Shown: positions 18,529-28,091 of the stretch, in pieces
Position numbering within the stretch: position 1 is the stretch's first letter
How the letters are laid out: each line of letters begins with the position of its first letter
Assembly: GCF_029633915.1 (NCBI RefSeq)
Contig: NZ_CP091092.1
Coordinates: forward strand, 310,001 to 374,000
Reading direction: 5' to 3'
DNA: 64,000 bases
From: Methanomicrobium antiquum
GTDB lineage: Archaea; Halobacteriota; Methanomicrobia; Methanomicrobiales; Methanomicrobiaceae
Translations under genes and position numbers: made by a program
Notes under the pieces: generated by a model
What the model saw: only the letters and a program-made list of their open reading frames with translations
Database searches by the model: none
What the model was told of the DNA's origin: nothing

Positions 18529-20106
18529 TTGAAATACATAATCGTTACCGGAGGTGTGATGAGTGGTCTTGGAAAAGGGATCACAACCGCATCTATTGGC
18601 AGAATACTGAAAAACAGAGGATACAGGGTCACTGCTGTAAAGATAGATCCGTATCTTAACATTGACGCCGGAACAATGAATCCTGCTCAGCACGGAGAAG
18701 TTTTTGTATTAAAAGACGGCGGTGAAGCAGATCTCGACCTTGGTAATTACGAGAGATTTTTGGACATCAGCCTAACTTCTGATCACAACATAACAACAGG
18801 AAAAGTATACCAGACTGTAATTGACAAGGAAAGGCATGGAGATTATCTTGGAGCAACTGTTCAGATAATTCCCCATATCACTGATCAGATAAAGGAATTT
18901 ATCAAAACTGCTGCTGAAAATTCAAACGGTGACGGAAAAGCAGAAATTTGTCTTGTTGAGGTCGGAGGAACGGTTGGTGACATCGAAAGCATGCCGTTTT
19001 TGGAAGCAATAAGGCAAATGGTTGGAGAGCTTCCTGAAGAAGACATAATACTTGTTCATGTAACCCTTGTTCCTGAAGACAACATGGGAGATCACAAAAC
19101 AAAGCCCACCCAGCACTCTGTAAAAGTCCTGCGCGAACTTGGTCTTCATCCTGATGCAATTGTCGGAAGAAGCGAGACTGTTATGAGCAGTTCAACAAAG
19201 AAGAAAATCTCCGACTTCTGCGGCGTTGCACAAAAGGCTGTTATATCAGCGGCAACTGCAAAAGATATCTACGAAGTTCCTGTTGAGATGGAAAAGGAAG
19301 GAATGGCATCTGTAATAAGAGATCTTCTTCATTTGGAGGAGCGTCCTGCTGATAACAAGTGGTACAGAACAGTCTGCCGGGAGTATACAAGACGGGCATC
19401 GGTTGCAATCGTTACAAAGTATGGTGTTGAAGATGTTTATATGTCAATCAAAGAGGCTTTGAGGCATGCCGGAAGAAGCCTTTCAACCGAAGTTGACATA
19501 AAATGGGTTGATGCCGAAAACTACGAGGATAGCGAGTTATCAGAGGTTGACGGAATTTTAATACCGGGAGGATTTGGGCCGCGTGGAATTGAAGGAAAGA
19601 TCAATGCCATAAAATACGCCCGTGAGAACAAAATTCCATTCCTTGGATTATGTCTTGGTTTTCAGCTTGCAGTAATTGAATACTGCAGAAGTGTCCTTGG
19701 CTGGGAGAATGCAACCTCTGAAGAAATGGGCGAAGGAAAGCATGTAATTGCAATTCTTCCCGAACAGGAGGATGTTGTAGACCTTGGCGGAACAATGAGA
19801 CTTGGAGACTGCACAATTGACATTAAGCCCGGAACAAGGATTGAGAAACTTTATGGCAAAAATGAGGTTGTTGAACGCCACCGCCACAGGTATGAGGTAA
19901 ATCCTGAGTATATCCCTGAAATAGAATCTGCAGGACTTATCTTTTCAGGAAAATGCGGGCCGAGAATGGAATCCTGTGAACTTTCAGGAGATGATTTCTT
20001 CCTTGCAACACAGTTCCATCCTGAATTTAAGTCTACACCCACACATCCTTCCCCGCCGTATCTTGGATTTGTGGAGGCGTGCGCTAATAAAAGAAAGGGT
20101 GAATGA
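18529..20106 (+). CDS. pyrG: CTP synthase
   Basis: PyrG aminates UTP to CTP using glutamine. The N-terminal synthetase domain has [14 protein letters not shown] (P-loop), [13 protein letters not shown] and [18 protein letters not shown]. The C-terminal class I amidotransferase domain has [14 protein letters not shown] with its nucleophile cysteine and QFHPEF with the histidine. The length of 525 residues is normal. Translation starts at TTG 18529, preceded by GGAGAGGGTG; a TATA-like TATATTTATAT lies just upstream. It heads the plus-strand housekeeping run. Confidence 0.98.
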
Positions 20107-20190
20107 GAGAAAAAATTCAGAAATCAAAAAATTATGAATTAAATGTCAGAATAAAAAAGTCAGAATAAAAAACAGGGAGAATTGAAAAAA

Positions 20191-21108
20191 ATGGTAAATG
20201 CTGAGAAATTTATTGCAAAGGCAATAGAGGATATAAAAGAGAAATCAAACGGCAAAAAGGTTGTAATGGCGCTTTCCGGCGGTGTTGACTCATCAGTATG
20301 TGCCGAACTTGCAAAGCGTGCAATCGGTGAAAACTTAATGCCAATCTATGTTGACACAGGTCTTATGAGAAAAGGAGAGACTAAGAGGATAAAAGAGCTC
20401 TTCTCTGATTTAAATCTCCTGACAATAGATGCCGGCGATGAGTTCTTCGAGGCTCTCTCCGGTGTCACAGACCCTGAAGAGAAAAGAAAGGTTATTGGTG
20501 CAAAATTCATAAGAATCTTTGAGCGTGAGGCAAAAAAGACCGGCGCCGCTTATCTTTTGCAGGGCACAATATATCCTGACATTATTGAAAGCGAAGGGGG
20601 AATCAAAAGCCATCACAATGTCGGAGGACTTCCTTATGACATCGACTTTGAAGGTTTAATTGAGCCGTTAATTGATCTCTACAAGGATGAGGTAAGAGAG
20701 GTTGCAGGAGCGCTTGAACTTCCCGTTGAAATTCAGCACAGAATGCCCTTCCCCGGACCCGGACTTTCGGTCCGCTGTATTGGTGAGGTTACAAAAGAGA
20801 AGATTGCAGTTGTAAGAGAGGCAAATGCAATTGCAGAAGAGGAAATTGTTGAGAAATATTCTCCCTGGCAGTGTTTTGCCGCAGTTATCGGACTTGGAAC
20901 AGGTGTAAAGGGTGATGTCCGCCTTCACGGATGGATTGTTTCTGTAAGGGCTGTATATTCCCGCGATGCAATGACAGCAGAGCCGGTTGAAATCTCATGG
21001 GAGACAATGCATAAGATTGCAACCAGAATAACGGCAGAAATTCCTGAAGTTGCAAGGGTTGTATATGATATAACACCAAAACCTCCTGCAACAATAGAGT
21101 ATGAGTGA
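20191..21108 (+). CDS. guaAB: GMP synthase subunit B (ATP-pyrophosphatase)
   Basis: This is the synthetase half of the two-subunit archaeal GMP synthase; the glutaminase subunit is encoded elsewhere. Evidence is the PP-loop [20 protein letters not shown], the [17 protein letters not shown] segment and the dimer-domain motifs [11 protein letters not shown] and [12 protein letters not shown] at the terminus. I chose the ATG at 20191, ten bases past GGGAGA; a TTG nine bases earlier is too close to that site. It lies between pyrG and argD in the same direction, so nucleotide amination genes are grouped. Confidence 0.97.
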
Positions 21109-21163
21109 ATTAAAAACAAAATAAAAAAAAACAAAAAAAATTAACAAAAAAGGACAGGGAAAA

Positions 21164-22315
21164 ATGGAAGAAAAAATGAGCTCAAAAGAACTTGAAGACT
21201 TGTATTTCATGAAAGCCTTCGGACGCGACTTAAAGATTGTTAAGGGAAGCGGAAGCTATGTCTGGGACGAGAACGGGAAGAAATATCTTGACTGTGTTGC
21301 AGGAATTGCAGTATGTGTGACAGGGCACTGCAACCCTGAAGTTGTTGATGCAATATGCAACCAGGCAAAAGAGCTAATACACATATCAAATCTTTATTAT
21401 GTTCCAAACCAGGGAGAGCTTGCAAAAAAGGTTGTTGAAATGACAGGAATCAAAGGCGCAAGGGCGTTTTTCTCAAACTCCGGCGCTGAGGCAAATGACG
21501 GTGCAATAAAGCTTGCAAGAATAAGAACCGGCAGAAAAAATTTTGTTGCATTCGTTGACGGATTCCACGGGAGAACACTTGGATCACTTGCAGTGACACA
21601 TAAACCTGCAATAAGAGAGCCTTTTGATCCGCTTGAGCCAAAGTGCACATTTGTCAGATACGGAGATCTGAATGCCCTTGAAAAAGCAGTTGATGAGAAT
21701 ACTGCCGGTGTCTTTGTCGAGGGAATTCAGGGAGAAGCAGGAATTGTTCCGGCACCAGAAGGATTTTATGAGGGTGTCAGAAAAATCTGCGATGAGAAAG
21801 GTGCACTAATGATCTGTGACGAAGTCCAGAGCGGAATGGGAAGGACAGGAAAGTGGTTTTATTACCAGCACACCGGCATAACACCTGATATTGTATCCAT
21901 TGCAAAAGGAATCGCTAGCGGACTTCCAATGGGTGCTATAGTAGCACGTGACGGTCTCACATTTAACCCCGGAGAGCACGGAAGCACATTTGCCGGCGGT
22001 CCGATTCTCTGTGCGGCGGCGCTTACTACAATAAAGATTATAGAAGAAAATCTCCCTTTGATATCAGAAAAGGGAAAAATGTTTATGGACGGTCTTAGTG
22101 CATACTCTCCGCGTGGTATGGGTCTTATGATAGGTATTCCTGCAGGAGATGAGGAACGCTCACATAAAATTGCAGAAATATGCCGCAAAAACGGAGTTTT
22201 AGTAAACTGTGCATCCCACGCAACAATCCGTATTGTGCCGCCGCTTACAATATCAAAGGAAGAAATAAAAGAGGCAGTGTCAGTAATTGACGGTGCATTC
22301 AAAGAGACTGCATAA
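21164..22315 (+). CDS. argD: Acetylornithine aminotransferase
   Basis: This class III PLP aminotransferase converts N-acetylglutamate semialdehyde to acetylornithine in arginine synthesis. Motifs are SNSGAEANDGAIKLAR, FHGRTLGSLA, the aspartate in LMICDEVQSGMGRTG, and the PLP lysine in VSIAKGIASGLPMGA. The length of 383 fits. Related class III enzymes (for example for lysine or GABA) cannot be excluded, but this is the usual methanogen ArgD. It sits 55 bp after the GMP synthase gene. Confidence 0.92.
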   Translation: MEEKMSSKELEDLYFMKAFGRDLKIVKGSGSYVWDENGKKYLDCVAGIAVCVTGHCNPEVVDAICNQAKELIHISNLYYVPNQGELAKKVVEMTGIKGARAFFSNSGAEANDGAIKLARIRTGRKNFVAFVDGFHGRTLGSLAVTHKPAIREPFDPLEPKCTFVRYGDLNALEKAVDENTAGVFVEGIQGEAGIVPAPEGFYEGVRKICDEKGALMICDEVQSGMGRTGKWFYYQHTGITPDIVSIAKGIASGLPMGAIVARDGLTFNPGEHGSTFAGGPILCAAALTTIKIIEENLPLISEKGKMFMDGLSAYSPRGMGLMIGIPAGDEERSHKIAEICRKNGVLVNCASHATIRIVPPLTISKEEIKEAVSVIDGAFKETA

Positions 22316-22350
22316 AATAATCAGTGCTGTTTAATACTGAGGGTAATTTG

Positions 22351-23424
22351 ATGAAGCATTTAATCAGGAATATTTTCGAAGAAGAGGGCTATGTATTTGC
22401 AACAAAAGCATCAGATATTGCAAAAGATGCAGGTTTTTTAAATCCTGCCCGCCTTGCAAGCAATGAAAACCCAAAAGGACCTTCTTTTAAGGCAATGGAA
22501 TGTGCCAAAAAATCACTTGAGGATCTAAACCGCTATCCTGATGAAAATGCAAAAAAACTTGTTCAGGCTCTTCGTGACTATCATGGCGATTATAGAATAG
22601 TAACAGGAGTCGGCATGGACGGAGTTATTGAAAACACAATCAGAACCCTTGTTGAAGCAGGCGACAAGGTATGCGTCAGCACTCCGACATTTTCTTTTTA
22701 TGGAATTGCAATAGCCGCCCAGGGAGGAGTGGTTTCAAATATCAGACGAACTGATGATTTCACAGTTGATTGTGACAGTTTCATAAAGGGGTGTAAAGGA
22801 GCGAAGCTTGCCTTTTTGTGTTCGCCAAACAACCCGACAGGAACTGTAACAAAAGTCTCTGATATTGAATACATTCTGAAGAATATTGATTGCATTCTTT
22901 TTTTGGACAATGCTTATGTGGATTTTTGCGATACCGACTACAAAGAGCTTGTAAAAAAATACGATAATCTCATAATTGGAAGAACAATGTCAAAGGCATT
23001 TGGACTTGCCGGAATGAGGGTTGGGTATGCTTTTGTTCCGGAATGGTATGAAGAATATTATCATCGTGCACAGACTCCCTTTGCCTTGAATTCGGTTGCA
23101 ATCGAAGCCGCATCCGGTGCGCTATTGGATAAGGAATATTTTGAAAGCTACAAAAGTCATGTTGAAGAATGGAGAAGGCGTTTTAGCCTTGAATCAGGCT
23201 TTTTAGTGTATCCTTCAGGCGCCAACTTTGTAATGATGGATGTATCGCCCTTAAAAAGCGATGATGCCGTATTACAGCTGGCAAAAAGGGGAGTTATTGT
23301 CAGATCCTGTGCGAGTTTTCCAACACTAAATGACAGTTTCATCAGAGTAAGTGTTGGAGAATCCTGGGAGAATGAACTTTTCTTAAAAGCGATAAAAGAA
23401 TTAAAGGCATTAAAAGAGATTTGA
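22351..23424 (+). CDS. hisC: Histidinol-phosphate aminotransferase
   Basis: HisC transfers the amino group of glutamate to imidazole acetol phosphate. This fold-I enzyme shows LASNENPKGPS, the PTFSFYGIAI region, SPNNPTGTV, DNAYVDF, and the PLP lysine in RTMSKAFGLAGMRVGY. I chose ATG 22351, seven bases after GAGGGT; a GTG at 22324 would add nine residues outside the family start. The stop overlaps the next gene's ribosome-binding region. Confidence 0.94.
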   Translation: MKHLIRNIFEEEGYVFATKASDIAKDAGFLNPARLASNENPKGPSFKAMECAKKSLEDLNRYPDENAKKLVQALRDYHGDYRIVTGVGMDGVIENTIRTLVEAGDKVCVSTPTFSFYGIAIAAQGGVVSNIRRTDDFTVDCDSFIKGCKGAKLAFLCSPNNPTGTVTKVSDIEYILKNIDCILFLDNAYVDFCDTDYKELVKKYDNLIIGRTMSKAFGLAGMRVGYAFVPEWYEEYYHRAQTPFALNSVAIEAASGALLDKEYFESYKSHVEEWRRRFSLESGFLVYPSGANFVMMDVSPLKSDDAVLQLAKRGVIVRSCASFPTLNDSFIRVSVGESWENELFLKAIKELKALKEI

Positions 23425-23429
23425 AAATT

Positions 23430-23930
23430 ATGATGGTCTGCATTACAGGAACGCCTGGAACAGGAAAGTCTGCGGTTTCAGAAATATTAAGAGATAAAGG
23501 ATACAGGGTTGACTCTCAAAACGAAACTGCAAAAAAATATATCATCTGTTCTGATTTTAGCCGTGATACTGATATTGTCGATGAGGACAAGTGGATAGAG
23601 GATTTTGAACCATTCGAGGGTATAATAGAAGGCCACATAACTCACTATCTGCCCTGTGACAGTGTCGTTGTCCTTCGTTGCAGACCTGATATTTTAAAAG
23701 AGCGTCTCATAAAAAGAGGATACGGGCCTGAGAAGGTCTTGGAAAATGTGATGGCTGAAGCTTTGGATGTTGTATTAATTGAAGCACTTGAAGAACACTC
23801 CCAGGATTCTTTACTTGAAATTGACACAACAGAAAAATCTCCTGAGCAGACTGCTGATGAAATCTCTAAATTTATGAAAGGAGATATTCCAGGTCATTTT
23901 GGAGATACTGACTGGTCTTTGTTTCTTTAG
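23430..23930 (+). CDS. Adenylate kinase, AK6/Fap7-like
   Basis: This compact P-loop kinase has CITGTPGTGKSAVSEILR at the start, the DEDKWIEDFEPFEGIIEGHITHYLPCD segment characteristic of AK6 (key pieces: IIEGH and HYLPCD), and RLIKRGYGPEKVLENVMAE as lid and basic region. AK6/Fap7 members also assist 18S/16S rRNA maturation. It lies 5 bp after hisC. Start could be ATG 23430 or 23433. Confidence 0.87.
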   Translation: MMVCITGTPGTGKSAVSEILRDKGYRVDSQNETAKKYIICSDFSRDTDIVDEDKWIEDFEPFEGIIEGHITHYLPCDSVVVLRCRPDILKERLIKRGYGPEKVLENVMAEALDVVLIEALEEHSQDSLLEIDTTEKSPEQTADEISKFMKGDIPGHFGDTDWSLFL

Positions 23931-23942
23931 GTGATGATTTAT

Positions 23943-24542
23943 ATGACTCTTGACAGCTACAGAAAAAACGTATCGTTTATTATAACTCCTGTTGCAAGGG
24001 GATGTGTCAGGATAGGACTGACACCAAATATCTGCACAATTCTTGCATTTTTAGCGGCGGTTTTTGCCGGCTATTTGTTTTTCAAGTCGTTGGTTTTTGC
24101 CGGAGTTTTATTTGTATTTCTGAATGCATTTTTTGATGCAATTGACGGTGCAGTCGCACGCGAGCTTAATTCTGCAAGTCCGCGGGGTGATTTTTTGGAT
24201 CATGTCCTTGACAGATATGCAGACATTTTCATAATCTGCGGTATCTTTGCAGGCAGTCTTGCTACATGGCCTATTGGAGTCTTTGCACTTACAGGTGTTT
24301 TGATGTCATCATATCTTGGAACGCAGGCACAGGCTGTGGGGGCAGGAAGGTTTTATGGCGGACTTTTAGGGCGTGCAGACAGGCTGGTTTTGATAATTGC
24401 GGCCGGAATTTTTACAGCTTTGCTTCCCGCCGGAATTTTCGGCATGAGCATTCTTGGCTGGGTGCTTGTAATCTTTGGAATACTGGGTCATTTTACAGCT
24501 CTCCAGCGGTTCAATCATGTTTGGAAAGAACTCAAAAGATAA
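23943..24542 (+). CDS. CDP-alcohol phosphatidyltransferase, AIP-synthase-like
   Basis: The full CDP-alcohol transferase signature is present: DAIDGAVAR, then GDFLDHVLDRYAD with the metal-binding aspartates. About six membrane helices follow the usual pattern. In archaea this clade makes archaetidylinositol phosphate, a precursor of inositol ether lipids; that substrate is inferred from length and order, not proved. ATG 23943 is preceded by AGGTGAT; the GTG at 23931 is also possible. It forms an operon with the kinase gene. Confidence 0.87.
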   Translation: MTLDSYRKNVSFIITPVARGCVRIGLTPNICTILAFLAAVFAGYLFFKSLVFAGVLFVFLNAFFDAIDGAVARELNSASPRGDFLDHVLDRYADIFIICGIFAGSLATWPIGVFALTGVLMSSYLGTQAQAVGAGRFYGGLLGRADRLVLIIAAGIFTALLPAGIFGMSILGWVLVIFGILGHFTALQRFNHVWKELKR

Positions 24543-24571: not shown

Positions 24572-25114
24572 GTGATTGTTGTGGCATTTAAGCGAGTGGT
24601 TGTTGCGGGGAAATTGAAGGGAAATTTAGATGATGAGATCTCTCCTGTTTTTGGAAGGTGTGGGGGATTTTGCGTATTTGATTTGGCAGACGGAAATGTA
24701 TCAGAAAGTAAAATTATTTCAAATCCGGCAATAGATCTTCCTGGAAGTGCAGGGGTTGTTGCCGCTGATTCTGTTGTTAAGCTTGGCGCTGACGCTGTTG
24801 TTGCCGGAGATTTTGGTGTTGCTTCTACAGAAATCTTCTACAAATCCGGAGTTAAGCAGTACATTGTAAAAGATACTACAATAAAAGATGCTCTTGAAAA
24901 GATGATTTCGGGTGAGACTGCCTGTGTTGATTCAAAAAACTATATTGAGTCAAATAAACCTCTTTATGGTAGGAGAAGCATTACACTCAAAAATACAAAC
25001 AATCTTCAAAACAATAATTCATATATCTGCAGAAACTGCGGTTGCACAATGCCAAGAAAGGAAGGTCTTATGCAGATTCACTGCCCCAACTGCGGGAATA
25101 TGATGGAATTGTGA
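24572..25114 (+). CDS. NifX/NifB-type cofactor-binding domain with zinc ribbon
   Basis: Residues 7-110 form a dinitrogenase FeMo-cofactor domain (NifX/NafY/MTH1175 family): LDDEISPVFGRCGGFCVFDL, then GAGVVAADSVVKLGADAVVAGDFG-like core (here SAGVVAADSVVKLGADAVV). Residues 140-180 hold a zinc ribbon with CRNCGC and CPNCGN. Domains of this family bind iron-sulfur clusters or metal cofactors. The gene starts at GTG 24572 with no obvious ribosome-binding site. It ends 2 bp from the nitrogenase-like operon in convergent orientation, suggesting functional association. Its role there is inference. Confidence 0.8.
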   Translation: MIVVAFKRVVVAGKLKGNLDDEISPVFGRCGGFCVFDLADGNVSESKIISNPAIDLPGSAGVVAADSVVKLGADAVVAGDFGVASTEIFYKSGVKQYIVKDTTIKDALEKMISGETACVDSKNYIESNKPLYGRRSITLKNTNNLQNNNSYICRNCGCTMPRKEGLMQIHCPNCGNMMEL

Positions 25115-25116
25115 TT

Positions 25117-26232
25117 TTATCTTTTTGATTCAAGGGAATTTAGAACTGAATCCATAAAATAAAGACTTCCTTCCACCCCGCAAAGTGGTCTGTGCCAGAG
25201 CATCTTCTGATGCCTTATTGGAAATGTAAGTCCAAAAAACGGTTTTTTTGGAAATTTTGCATATTCAAATGATGAGCCTAAAATGATGTCAGGCTTTTCT
25301 GCATCAATTTTTTTTACAATCTCTCTTAAATTATTTGAATCTGAATTATCACTGTTATTATTATCGTTTCTGGTGTTAACTGTCACAATTTCCGCATCCA
25401 GATAATTCTTTAAGATATCACATGCGAATTTTGAATAGCTCTTTGTTGAAAAGACAGCCGCACGGGGTGAGTCATTTCTTCTCAGGAATTTCTCACCAGC
25501 CTTTCTCATAATCTCTTCTGCTTCTTCAGTTAAATTAAATACTGGCTCTGTGTTTGCTTCCGGAAACTGATTTGAGAGCTTTTCAAATGCATCTTCTGTT
25601 TCTTTAAGGCCTAGAATTGAATAAGTCACTTTTGAAACGTCTGTATTGTAATCCGGATTTGCAGAAATTGATGTGCAGGAAGGATTTTTACAGGCGTTGT
25701 AGGTATCTTTGAAAAAGACTGAGGCTTTCGGAATTTCAGAAACGTGCAAAAGCCTTTCGGCTTCGTTTAAGTTGCCGCGGGAATATGGGTCAAGCGAGCA
25801 GATGCCTTCTATATTAACTCCGTTTTTTTCCGGATCACATGTTGGTTTTAAGGCGCTTACTGCACTTTTCCAGCCATAATCAAAGTCTCCTTTGAATCCT
25901 GCTATATCAACCGTTATGCAGTCATACTCTGATAATGTGCCTGAAATATCTTCTCCCATGACTGACGGAACACATGTATTTATTACTGCAACTCTGCCGC
26001 AAAGCTCTGAAATACTTTCAACAACTTCCAACAGCCTGTCAGACGTTCCAAATATGACCTCATCCTGGACAAGAAATGTACTGTATAATGTGTCCGAAAC
26101 TGCCATGTCGGCATAAATGTAGCACCCTGATGATCCATGTATGATAACGCCTAAATCCTTTATTCCTGCAAGCGCTGATGCCGCACCTGTCATTGCACAA
26201 GGCCATAGTGGATTTGCACATAATTTAGCCAT
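25117..26232 (-). CDS. Nitrogenase-like component, NifK/NifD family
   Basis: The 371-residue protein belongs to the nitrogenase component 1 superfamily. C12 (PLWPCAMTGAA), C37 (IIHGSSGCYIYAD) and C87 (VINTCVPSVMGEDIS) match the three P-cluster cysteine positions of NifK. The C-terminus FGLTFPIRHQKMLWHRPLCGVEGSLYFM resembles the NifE/NifK end (key: GVEGSLYF). It is shorter than true NifK (about 520). It overlaps the stop of the NifD-like gene by 8 bases. Together the two probably form a heterodimer or heterotetramer; the substrate is unknown. It differs from CfbD, which has its own signature and works without a partner. Confidence 0.85.
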   Translation of the reverse strand: MAKLCANPLWPCAMTGAASALAGIKDLGVIIHGSSGCYIYADMAVSDTLYSTFLVQDEVIFGTSDRLLEVVESISELCGRVAVINTCVPSVMGEDISGTLSEYDCITVDIAGFKGDFDYGWKSAVSALKPTCDPEKNGVNIEGICSLDPYSRGNLNEAERLLHVSEIPKASVFFKDTYNACKNPSCTSISANPDYNTDVSKVTYSILGLKETEDAFEKLSNQFPEANTEPVFNLTEEAEEIMRKAGEKFLRRNDSPRAAVFSTKSYSKFACDILKNYLDAEIVTVNTRNDNNNSDNSDSNNLREIVKKIDAEKPDIILGSSFEYAKFPKKPFFGLTFPIRHQKMLWHRPLCGVEGSLYFMDSVLNSLESKR

Positions 26233-27307
26233 TTATAAATCTCCTCCACTGTGAAAGCATATGAAAGACACCGCCTGTTCCAACAGGGGTAAAAAAAGGA
26301 ATTGGGATGGTGACGCCGTCTGAATCTAAAACGATGCCTGTATGTCTGGCGATTTCAGTGAAAAGATTTGAATCAGCCTTTTGAAAGCCGAATGAGTCAA
26401 ATGAAATTTTCTCCCCTCTTAGATCACTGAATGACTCAAACATTTCTTTTTGATAATTAATCTCATGCTTTATTGCAAGATCAGGATTTATGTTTAGATA
26501 TTCTCCTGCTTCTTTTAGAAATTCAAGAGTATTTGAAATTCCATATGGATATGAGGAGATGCAGGGGATATTTGTAAGCTTTTCAAAATGCCTTTTTATA
26601 TCTCCTGTTGTATCTTCACGGATTATGTTTAGTGATGCACAGTTGAAATTTTGAATATCATCAAAAGTTATATTCCTGATAAATCTTAAATTCACATCTG
26701 CGCCTAGGAGATTCAAAAGTCTTTTAATCTCTGAAAAATTGGCATCAACTTCATATTCTAAGTTTTTTTCACCAATTATATTTACAAGTGGCTTTATTTG
26801 GCATTCATCTGAATATTTATCTGAAAAATTGCAGTTCTCACCAATTATTTCCGATGCACCTTTCAGTGCTGATATAAACCCGTCTTCAAAAGAGCCGCCA
26901 AGAAATCCGGATGCATTAATCGGAATTACAGGGACACTGTCTTTTTCATTAAATCCGGCGCAGACTGATTCGATGTCATCGCCGATTGTATCACTAATGC
27001 ATGTTCCAATTATAAAGATACACCTGAAATCCTCATCCAAAGCCTCTTTTATGGCATCATTAAGGCTGTCCTCACCGCCAAAGATAATGTTTTTTTCATC
27101 CATTGCAGACGAGAATATATCCGGAATGTCAAAGCATTCGTTGTAAAGCATTGATGAGTGCAGGACTGAAACTGCCTGATGACAACAGCCTTTTGGCCCG
27201 TGCACTATTGTTGCAGAATCCCGCAAAAATGTGGTTACTGTTAAAGCGCCTGTTACAGTACAGCCGTCATGCCTTGATATATTTTTGTGCAAGAGTTTCG
27301 AGTTCAT
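26225..27307 (-). CDS. Nitrogenase-like component, NifD family
   Basis: The 360 residues show C16 ([10 protein letters not shown]), C41/C42 ([12 protein letters not shown]) and C103 ([16 protein letters not shown]), the last closely matching the third P-cluster cysteine region of NifD. The FeMo-cofactor cysteine and histidine of NifD are not evident; the C-terminus reads [12 protein letters not shown]. So a P-cluster-like centre is likely but a FeMo-cofactor is not. The start overlaps the NifH-like gene by 41 bases, indicating tight coupling. The protein most likely pairs with the NifK-like product. Confidence 0.85.
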
Positions 27308-28091
27308 CCATTGAAAGCGGAGTTGGTTTTTTGTCAGGGTCAGGGTTTGTGTTCATTATTTTTTCAGCAAGCTTTCTGTATACATCTGCCTGTTCAGATT
27401 CAGGAGCATATTCAAGGACTGTTTTTTTGTTAACCTCTGATACTCTTACAATCTGGCTTCGCGGTATAAAACCTGTAAGTTCTGAGTTGATTTTTTCTGC
27501 AAATTCTGATACAAGCCCAAGTTCCCCCTCAATATTTTGTGAATTGCAGATAACACCACCTAATGTACAGCACGGTTTTGAGCGTTTTGACAGACGGGCA
27601 ATTGCCTTGCAGATGTTGTTTGCGGCATAAAGTGCCATGAAGTCCCCCGATGTTACAAGATAGACTTCGCGAGCGTAACCCTCCCGCATCGGCATTGCGA
27701 ATCCGCCACAGACAACATCGCCTAAAACATCATATACTATTACATCGCCGTAGAGCGCGTCTAACTTTTCCAGAAGCTGAAATGTTGCGATGATGCCGCG
27801 GCCTGCACAGCCGACACCAGGCTCAGGTCCTCCCGCTTCAACACAGCGGATATTGTTGTAGCCTGAAAAGACAACATCTTCTGTTGTAATATTCCCTTCG
27901 CCTTTTTCTCTTACAAGATCAAGGACTGTTGGAATCCATTGACCGTGCATTAACATGCGCGTACTGTCATGTTTCGGGTCGCATCCTATTTGGAGAATAT
28001 CTAAGGATTTTTCTGAAAGGGCAGCGGAAAGGTTTGCCGATGTTGTTGATTTTCCTATTCCTCCCTTGCCGTAGAGGGCGATTTGTTTCAT
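27267..28091 (-). CDS. NifH-like nitrogenase reductase
   Basis: This ATP-driven electron donor has the P-loop [11 protein letters not shown], switch features [11 protein letters not shown], and two cluster ligands C95 (GVGCAGRG) and C128 ([10 protein letters not shown]) for a 4Fe-4S cluster shared by the homodimer. The 274 residues are normal for NifH and relatives. As first gene of the operon it would supply electrons to the D/K-like complex. The window shows no nifEN, nifB, amtB or glnB genes, so ordinary nitrogen fixation is unlikely from this locus. Confidence 0.93.

Follow-up and report, generated by a model that had tools for sequence, protein, structure and literature searches.

A NifH/NifD/NifK-like operon of Methanomicrobiales with a very probable CfbC and a possible tetrapyrrole reductase

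Which reaction could be served by a nitrogenase-like operon whose catalytic subunits carry the cysteines of a P-cluster and have lost both ligands of the active-site cluster? The question is raised by a locus in a 64,000-nucleotide stretch of the genome of Methanomicrobium antiquum (hereafter the window; positions 310,001 to 374,000 of NZ_CP091092.1), a genome assembled as a 2.44-Mb single contig. Three genes follow one another on the minus strand in the order H, D, K: a NifH-family Fe protein (H, 27267..28091; 274 aa; Pfam Fer4_NifH, 2.4e-105) with a Walker motif and the [4Fe-4S] cysteines Cys95 and Cys128, a D-like subunit (26225..27307; 360 aa; PF00148 Oxidored_nitro, 1.9e-55) that starts inside H, and a K-like subunit (25117..26232; 371 aa; PF00148 Oxidored_nitro, 2.4e-35). 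H and D overlap by 41 bp (27267-27307) and D and K by 8 bp (26225-26232); these genes and a convergent neighbour lie where a first-pass annotation of the window had placed them, and Pfam agrees with it on all four open reading frames. We propose, with a probability of about 0.45, that H has the function of CfbC, the Fe protein of F430 synthesis, and that within a translationally coupled operon it serves both CfbD and an order-specific D/K pair (DK), an ATP-driven reductase that may act on a tetrapyrrole.

Nearly all Methanomicrobiales carry the D/K pair, which marks the order. Among 83 well-assembled genomes of this order and 310 other genomes of the phylum, D was found in 81 Methanomicrobiales at E <= 1e-45 and in 0 of the 310 others at that threshold, while the K profile recovered the same 81 genomes at E <= 1e-117 and everything else at 2e-33 or weaker. 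A D search of named genome contigs returned one locus only. The H-D overlap (23-41 bp) recurs in 20 of 20 orthologous loci across families of the order and the D-K overlap in 18 of them, which is far beyond chance, and purifying selection acts on both D and K (pN 0.19-0.31 vs pS 0.65-0.83). The operon occurs both with and without additional nitrogenase-like systems in the same genome. Two departures from the usual arrangement were seen: in family f4, K is still present but lies some 3.3 kb from H-D on the opposite strand (L101:10887-12047, L102:10924-12090), and one genome of family f5 (G350) carries two copies of the pair, on contigs C28 (locus L078) and C32.

The first-pass annotation contrasted this system with CfbC/CfbD, a contrast that fails for H, which is itself very probably the CfbC of this genome, shared between F430 synthesis and D/K. 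H scores 413.8 bits against the NCBIfam CfbC model NF033200 (cut-off 402), whereas the two other NifH domains of the genome, one in a group IV HDK set (L015) and one in a fused H-D protein (L016), fall below the cut-off. The cfb cluster of the genome (L017) comprises cfbA, cfbE, cfbD and cfbB, with a CfbD that scores 507 bits against TIGR03282, and holds no cfbC. By hand count, exactly one NifH-family gene, adjoining D, is present in each of 30 genomes that are at least 90% complete, where it is the only candidate for CfbC; H holds this position in most of the order. Both cluster cysteines that the earlier annotation had recognized in H, C95 and C128, are invariant in 21 orthologues.

Two well-assembled Methanomicrobiales without D/K, G185 and G404, have kept the orthologous H in its syntenic position next to TrkH, desulfoferrodoxin, FprA or PRK genes, and there too it exceeds the CfbC cut-off (406.5 and 415 bits, respectively). 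G185 encodes one NifH-family protein and one PF00148 protein in total, the latter being CfbD; H must therefore do necessary work without D/K, and CfbD is its sole visible partner. Together, the model cut-off, the status of H as sole NifH-family gene, the cfb cluster without cfbC and the retention of H with only CfbD argue for H being CfbC. An FprA tree used as a species proxy did not resolve whether D/K were lost from G185 and G404 or never gained, but both are placed in family f5, and DK is present in the other genera sampled from that family, which favours loss. The H proteins of the two DK-free genomes (L154:6901-7719, L155:6384-7217) sit on longer branches, as if constraint had been relaxed after the loss of D/K.

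D and K, in turn, combine a complete set of P-cluster-type cysteines with an altered active site. D C16/C41/C103 are invariant in 39 of 39 sequences and align with NifD C62/C88/C154, and K C12/C37/C87 are invariant in 35 of 35 and align with NifK C70/C95/C153, so that the assignment of these residues to P-cluster positions in the first-pass annotation stands and extends to the close homologues. K has a further invariant cysteine (C5) and D a near-invariant one (C116). By comparison, the P-cluster-position cysteines are incomplete in CfbD, BchB, Rhizobium NifN and the K of the fused system. In the alignment column of the FeMo-cofactor ligand Cys275, every NifD, NifE, VnfD, VnfE and Mar-like D examined has cysteine, whereas every D examined has an arginine (Arg230). 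The segment that carries His442 is deleted in D and its C-terminal (third) domain is truncated, which bears out the earlier remark that the cofactor ligands of NifD are not apparent. Nitrogen fixation by the operon was rejected, because both FeMo-cofactor ligands are gone and the operon occurs in genomes without any other NifH.

When 69 PF00148 proteins were placed in one tree, the D and K sequences formed separate, fully supported clades (100/99 and 100/100, respectively). The sister of D was the D portion of the fused H-D protein (100/95), and NifD/NifE/VnfD were in turn sister to these two (93/87). The deep separation from CfbCD and Nif that the first-pass annotation put forward as a mark of novelty thus holds for D and K, which lie outside the Nif, CfbD and Bch clades; H also lies outside the CfbC clade yet passes the CfbC cut-off. 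Scores against curated models tell of the same distance: the best for D are nifE (122.6, cut-off 505.1) and nifN (40.9, cut-off 326.8), those for K are lower, and the BchB model gives 64.8 against a cut-off of 490. Despite the CfbD-like length of D, D and K are two distinct subunits that reach only 56.7 and 34.3 bits, respectively, against TIGR03282 (cut-off 268.4), and CfbD lacks the C62 equivalent that is part of the six P-cluster-type cysteines of D/K. D/K as a replacement for CfbD was likewise rejected, since CfbD is present in the genomes inspected for it, including the DK-free G185.

AlphaFold2 models of both subunits were confident, with a predicted local distance difference test (pLDDT) score of 88.2 and a predicted template modelling (pTM) score of 0.86 for D, and 88.8 and 0.90 for K. 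Foldseek placed NifE/NifD chains on top for D, the first match being NifEN with NifX, and NifE/AnfK chains for K. With VIA-align, BchB came first for the K model (Z 36.0, root-mean-square deviation 2.7, 363 aligned residues), compared with MarK (32.9) and AnfK (31.6), and ChlB/BchB came first for the D model, with a small lead (28.6 for ChlB vs 27.3 for NifN). We take this modelled likeness of fold to BchB only as a hint that DK may act on a tetrapyrrole.

DK shares with NifDK/NifEN the HDK gene order and the PF00148 fold, with NifDK the six P-cluster cysteines, and NifE is the curated model that D matches best; DK differs in the arginine in place of Cys275, the missing His442 loop, the truncated third domain, the scores far under the Nif cut-offs and the separate deep clades. 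Likewise, the cysteine that holds the cluster in the E subunit of NifEN (in the NifE of genome G007 and of Rhizobium) is arginine in D. With DPOR (dark protochlorophyllide reductase, BchNB/ChlNB), DK has in common an Fe protein with two different subunits, a D without the active-site metal cluster ligands (the equivalents of Cys275 and His442) and the nearest modelled structures; however, DPOR has a single [4Fe-4S] cluster with an aspartate ligand where DK has six cysteines, and DK lies in a separate clade and scores below the BchB cut-off. MarHDK and the group IV NflHDK systems resemble the operon in their H-D-K organization, non-diazotrophic context and six P-cluster cysteines, but MarD keeps Cys270 of its active-site [Fe8S9C] cluster (PMC12552129), where D has arginine, and belongs to a different clade. 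Finally, the fused H-D system (L016, L149) is the sister clade of D and also lacks Cys275; it differs in the fusion itself, in a K-like partner that keeps only one P-cluster-position cysteine, and in its linkage to a FecCD-type ABC transporter, CbiK and CobN.

How DK might work can be sketched from nitrogenase, DPOR and Mar, as described in the literature (PMC12552129, PMC3464626). One Fe protein, H, would serve two catalytic components: CfbD, which is encoded elsewhere with cfbA, cfbB and cfbE, and DK. The latter would be a heteromer whose six cysteines, where D meets K, hold a relay cluster of P-cluster-like [8Fe-7S] (or [4Fe-4S]) type. As in other members of the family, ATP-bound H would dock on DK, hydrolyse ATP and give electrons singly from its [4Fe-4S] cluster to the relay, which would pass them to an organic substrate in the cavity of D that corresponds to the cofactor cavity of NifD. 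This cavity would be lined by the invariant Arg230 and perhaps by Arg208. With neither ligand of the active-site cluster left, DK probably acts on an organic substrate, as DPOR does, and the invariant arginines, one of them exactly at the cofactor-cysteine position, would suit an anionic one. A carboxylate-rich tetrapyrrole related to F430 or the corrinoids would be the most likely candidate, to be modified or repaired, although this is the weakest step of the scheme; it is favoured because the Fe protein is shared with F430 synthesis, because the sister clade has a CbiK/CobN/FecCD setting and because the fold is BchB-like. The first-pass annotation had suggested a reductase possibly related to sulfur or to tetrapyrroles; the tetrapyrrole half of this suggestion fits best, and no sulfur gene linked to the operon was found among the operon neighbourhoods examined. 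If the scheme is extended, DK might represent a third nitrogenase-like mode, with a P-cluster relay, no active-site metal cluster and the Fe protein of F430 synthesis, in an undescribed reduction of a tetrapyrrole that is specific to Methanomicrobiales; this broader reading is rather doubtful, and its examples may include modification of F430 or a corrinoid, or reductive repair of oxidized F430.

Several observations weigh against our proposal. The D sequence resembles NifE/NifD more than Bch, and the compactness of BchB may partly explain the structural preference for it. We know of no tetrapyrrole peculiar to Methanomicrobiales that would account for the distribution of D/K. The neighbours of the operon (FprA, desulfoferrodoxin, PRK, TrkH, or CTP synthase and others) do not point to a particular substrate. 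H falls outside the clade that CfbC proteins of other methanogens (Methanosarcina-type) form, so that the CfbC of Methanomicrobiales has a different history or a sequence that changed fast. The characterized tetrapyrrole reductases BchNB and CfbD, moreover, have neither all six cysteines nor a P-cluster (PMC12552129), whereas DK has the six.

The kinship of D with NifE, its best curated model and its best sequence match among solved structures, suggests another possibility, that DK is a NifEN-like scaffold or insertase which accepts the NifB-made L-cluster and works with H to deliver it, the MCR activation complex (McrC, Mmp7) being one conceivable recipient. Such a role would agree with the Foldseek match of D to NifEN with NifX, with the presence of NifB in 46 of 46 good relatives, even where no other nif gene occurs, with the NifX-like neighbour in part of one family, and with the involvement of L-clusters ([8Fe-9S-C]-type) in MCR activation (PMC12176620). 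It nonetheless seems unlikely to us: the cluster-binding cysteine of every NifD, NifE and VnfE examined is an invariant arginine in D, K has three P-cluster-position cysteines where Rhizobium NifN has one, conservation of the operon does not extend to the NifX-like gene, and the MCR activation machinery occurs in lineages without DK (PMC12176620), which in our sample did not extend outside Methanomicrobiales. The six cysteines shared with MarDK, the rank of MarK as best non-Bch structural match of K, and the activity of other NflHDK systems on sulfur compounds (PMC12552129, PMC11423573) would all be expected if DK were a sulfur-assimilating, C-S-cleaving enzyme of the methylthio-alkane reductase or NflHDK type. 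MarD, however, requires an [Fe8S9C] cluster held by Cys270 and His429 (PMC12552129), positions at which D has an arginine and no histidine loop; the operon is without a linked sulfur gene, and the same genome encodes at L015 a separate D with both positions occupied, which makes a C-S reductase quite improbable.

It may also be that DK has no separate reaction and merely helps CfbC/CfbD, as an electron buffer or as a cluster-maturation or regulatory partner in F430 synthesis. Its coupling to H nearly everywhere, its restriction to one order and its dispensability in a lineage where H and CfbD are retained are what such a helper would predict, but other methanogen orders run CfbC/CfbD without DK, and two full-length subunits with conserved relay and pocket residues resemble an enzyme; we regard the helper role as improbable. 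The H tree joins the Methanomicrobiales H clade (100/98) to NifH-type proteins as its sister (92/70), outside the clade formed by CfbC from other methanogens, and could alternatively mean that H is dedicated to DK and that CfbD is served by some unrecognized reductase. With no second NifH-family gene in about 30 genomes, an H above the CfbC cut-off, and its persistence without DK where CfbD is the only PF00148 protein, this would be very improbable, and a CfbC shared between CfbD and a reductive DK remains the reading that we prefer.

Pairs with this cysteine pattern have been known in bulk since 2012: Dos Santos et al. (2012; PMC3464626), in the portion of the survey considered here, describe 'yellow' group IV clades with six P-cluster cysteines and no FeMoco ligand, archaea included, without assigning a function, and the D/K family may be among them. 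The same portion of the survey already contains a fused NifH-NifE-like protein with a NifN-like partner, also without function, and draws no link to CfbC, to conservation across Methanomicrobiales or to natural loss of DK. What appears to be new, among the open-licence papers searched, is the tie of D/K to CfbC together with the order-wide conservation; no paper linking the six-cysteine pair to CfbC or noting this conservation was found in that literature. Methanomicrobiales form a large methanogen order that is widespread, and since nearly every member keeps the operon, the function of DK is probably core for these methane producers. If two catalytic components share CfbC, F430 synthesis and another ATP-driven reduction would compete or be coordinated. 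A P-cluster that occurs on its own, with no cluster at the active site, would also be relevant to the evolution of nitrogenase metal clusters, since reconstructions give the ancestor both kinds of cluster together (PMC12552129).

The convergent gene downstream of K (24572..25114, plus strand; 180 aa) ends 2 bp from the 3' end of K and encodes a NifX/NafY-like Nitro_FeMo-Co domain (Pfam, 2.4e-12) with a zinc ribbon, in position and domain as first annotated. The co-occurrence with the operon that had been envisaged does not hold across the family: the gene adjoins the operon only in a subset of family f1, with only weak relatives elsewhere, and was rejected as a component of the system in favour of a lineage-specific neighbour. 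Also in the window, a row of genes on the plus strand (18529-24542), conserved in the nearest genera, runs toward the operon, with CTP synthase first, followed by GMP synthase-like, aminotransferase, nucleotide kinase and CDP-alcohol phosphatidyltransferase-like genes. Outside the sub-clade of the window, the operon comes after FprA, desulfoferrodoxin, PRK and TrkH genes and is often near leuCDB-like genes. These neighbourhoods hint at an oxidative-stress setting and were set aside as a guide to the substrate because they are too inconsistent.

Other nitrogenase-like systems were seen in the same genome and in its relatives. At L015:5509-9324 (465-469 kb of the M. antiquum genome), an H-D-K set, whose D has the Cys275 equivalent, groups with group IV proteins of Chlorohelix and Treponema and not with Nif. 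The fused NifH-D protein and its K-like partner lie beside periplasmic-binding/FecCD/ABC transporter genes at L016:4265-7761 (568-572 kb of the same genome) and at L149:6002-9603 in a relative, where CbiK and CobN complete a tetrapyrrole-metal setting; this system possibly serves to process an imported tetrapyrrole or siderophore by reduction. Counting the operon of the window, three nitrogenase-like systems are therefore encoded in this genome, and all of them fall outside the Nif clade. A PF00148 protein of about 400 aa was found as a lone gene at L139:5926-7116 (minus strand), L138:5083-6306, L141:5992-7170, L144:3505-4692 and L145:6503-7678; it adjoins the cfb cluster in L139, is followed by a NifH-like gene of its own in L144, keeps the three D-side P-cluster cysteines and the Cys275 equivalent, and forms its own clade (100/99). 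In relatives from other families, clusters that combine two pairs of D-K type with one to three NifH genes (L142:541-7040, L147:439-8847) lie beside ABC transporter and methyltransferase-like genes.

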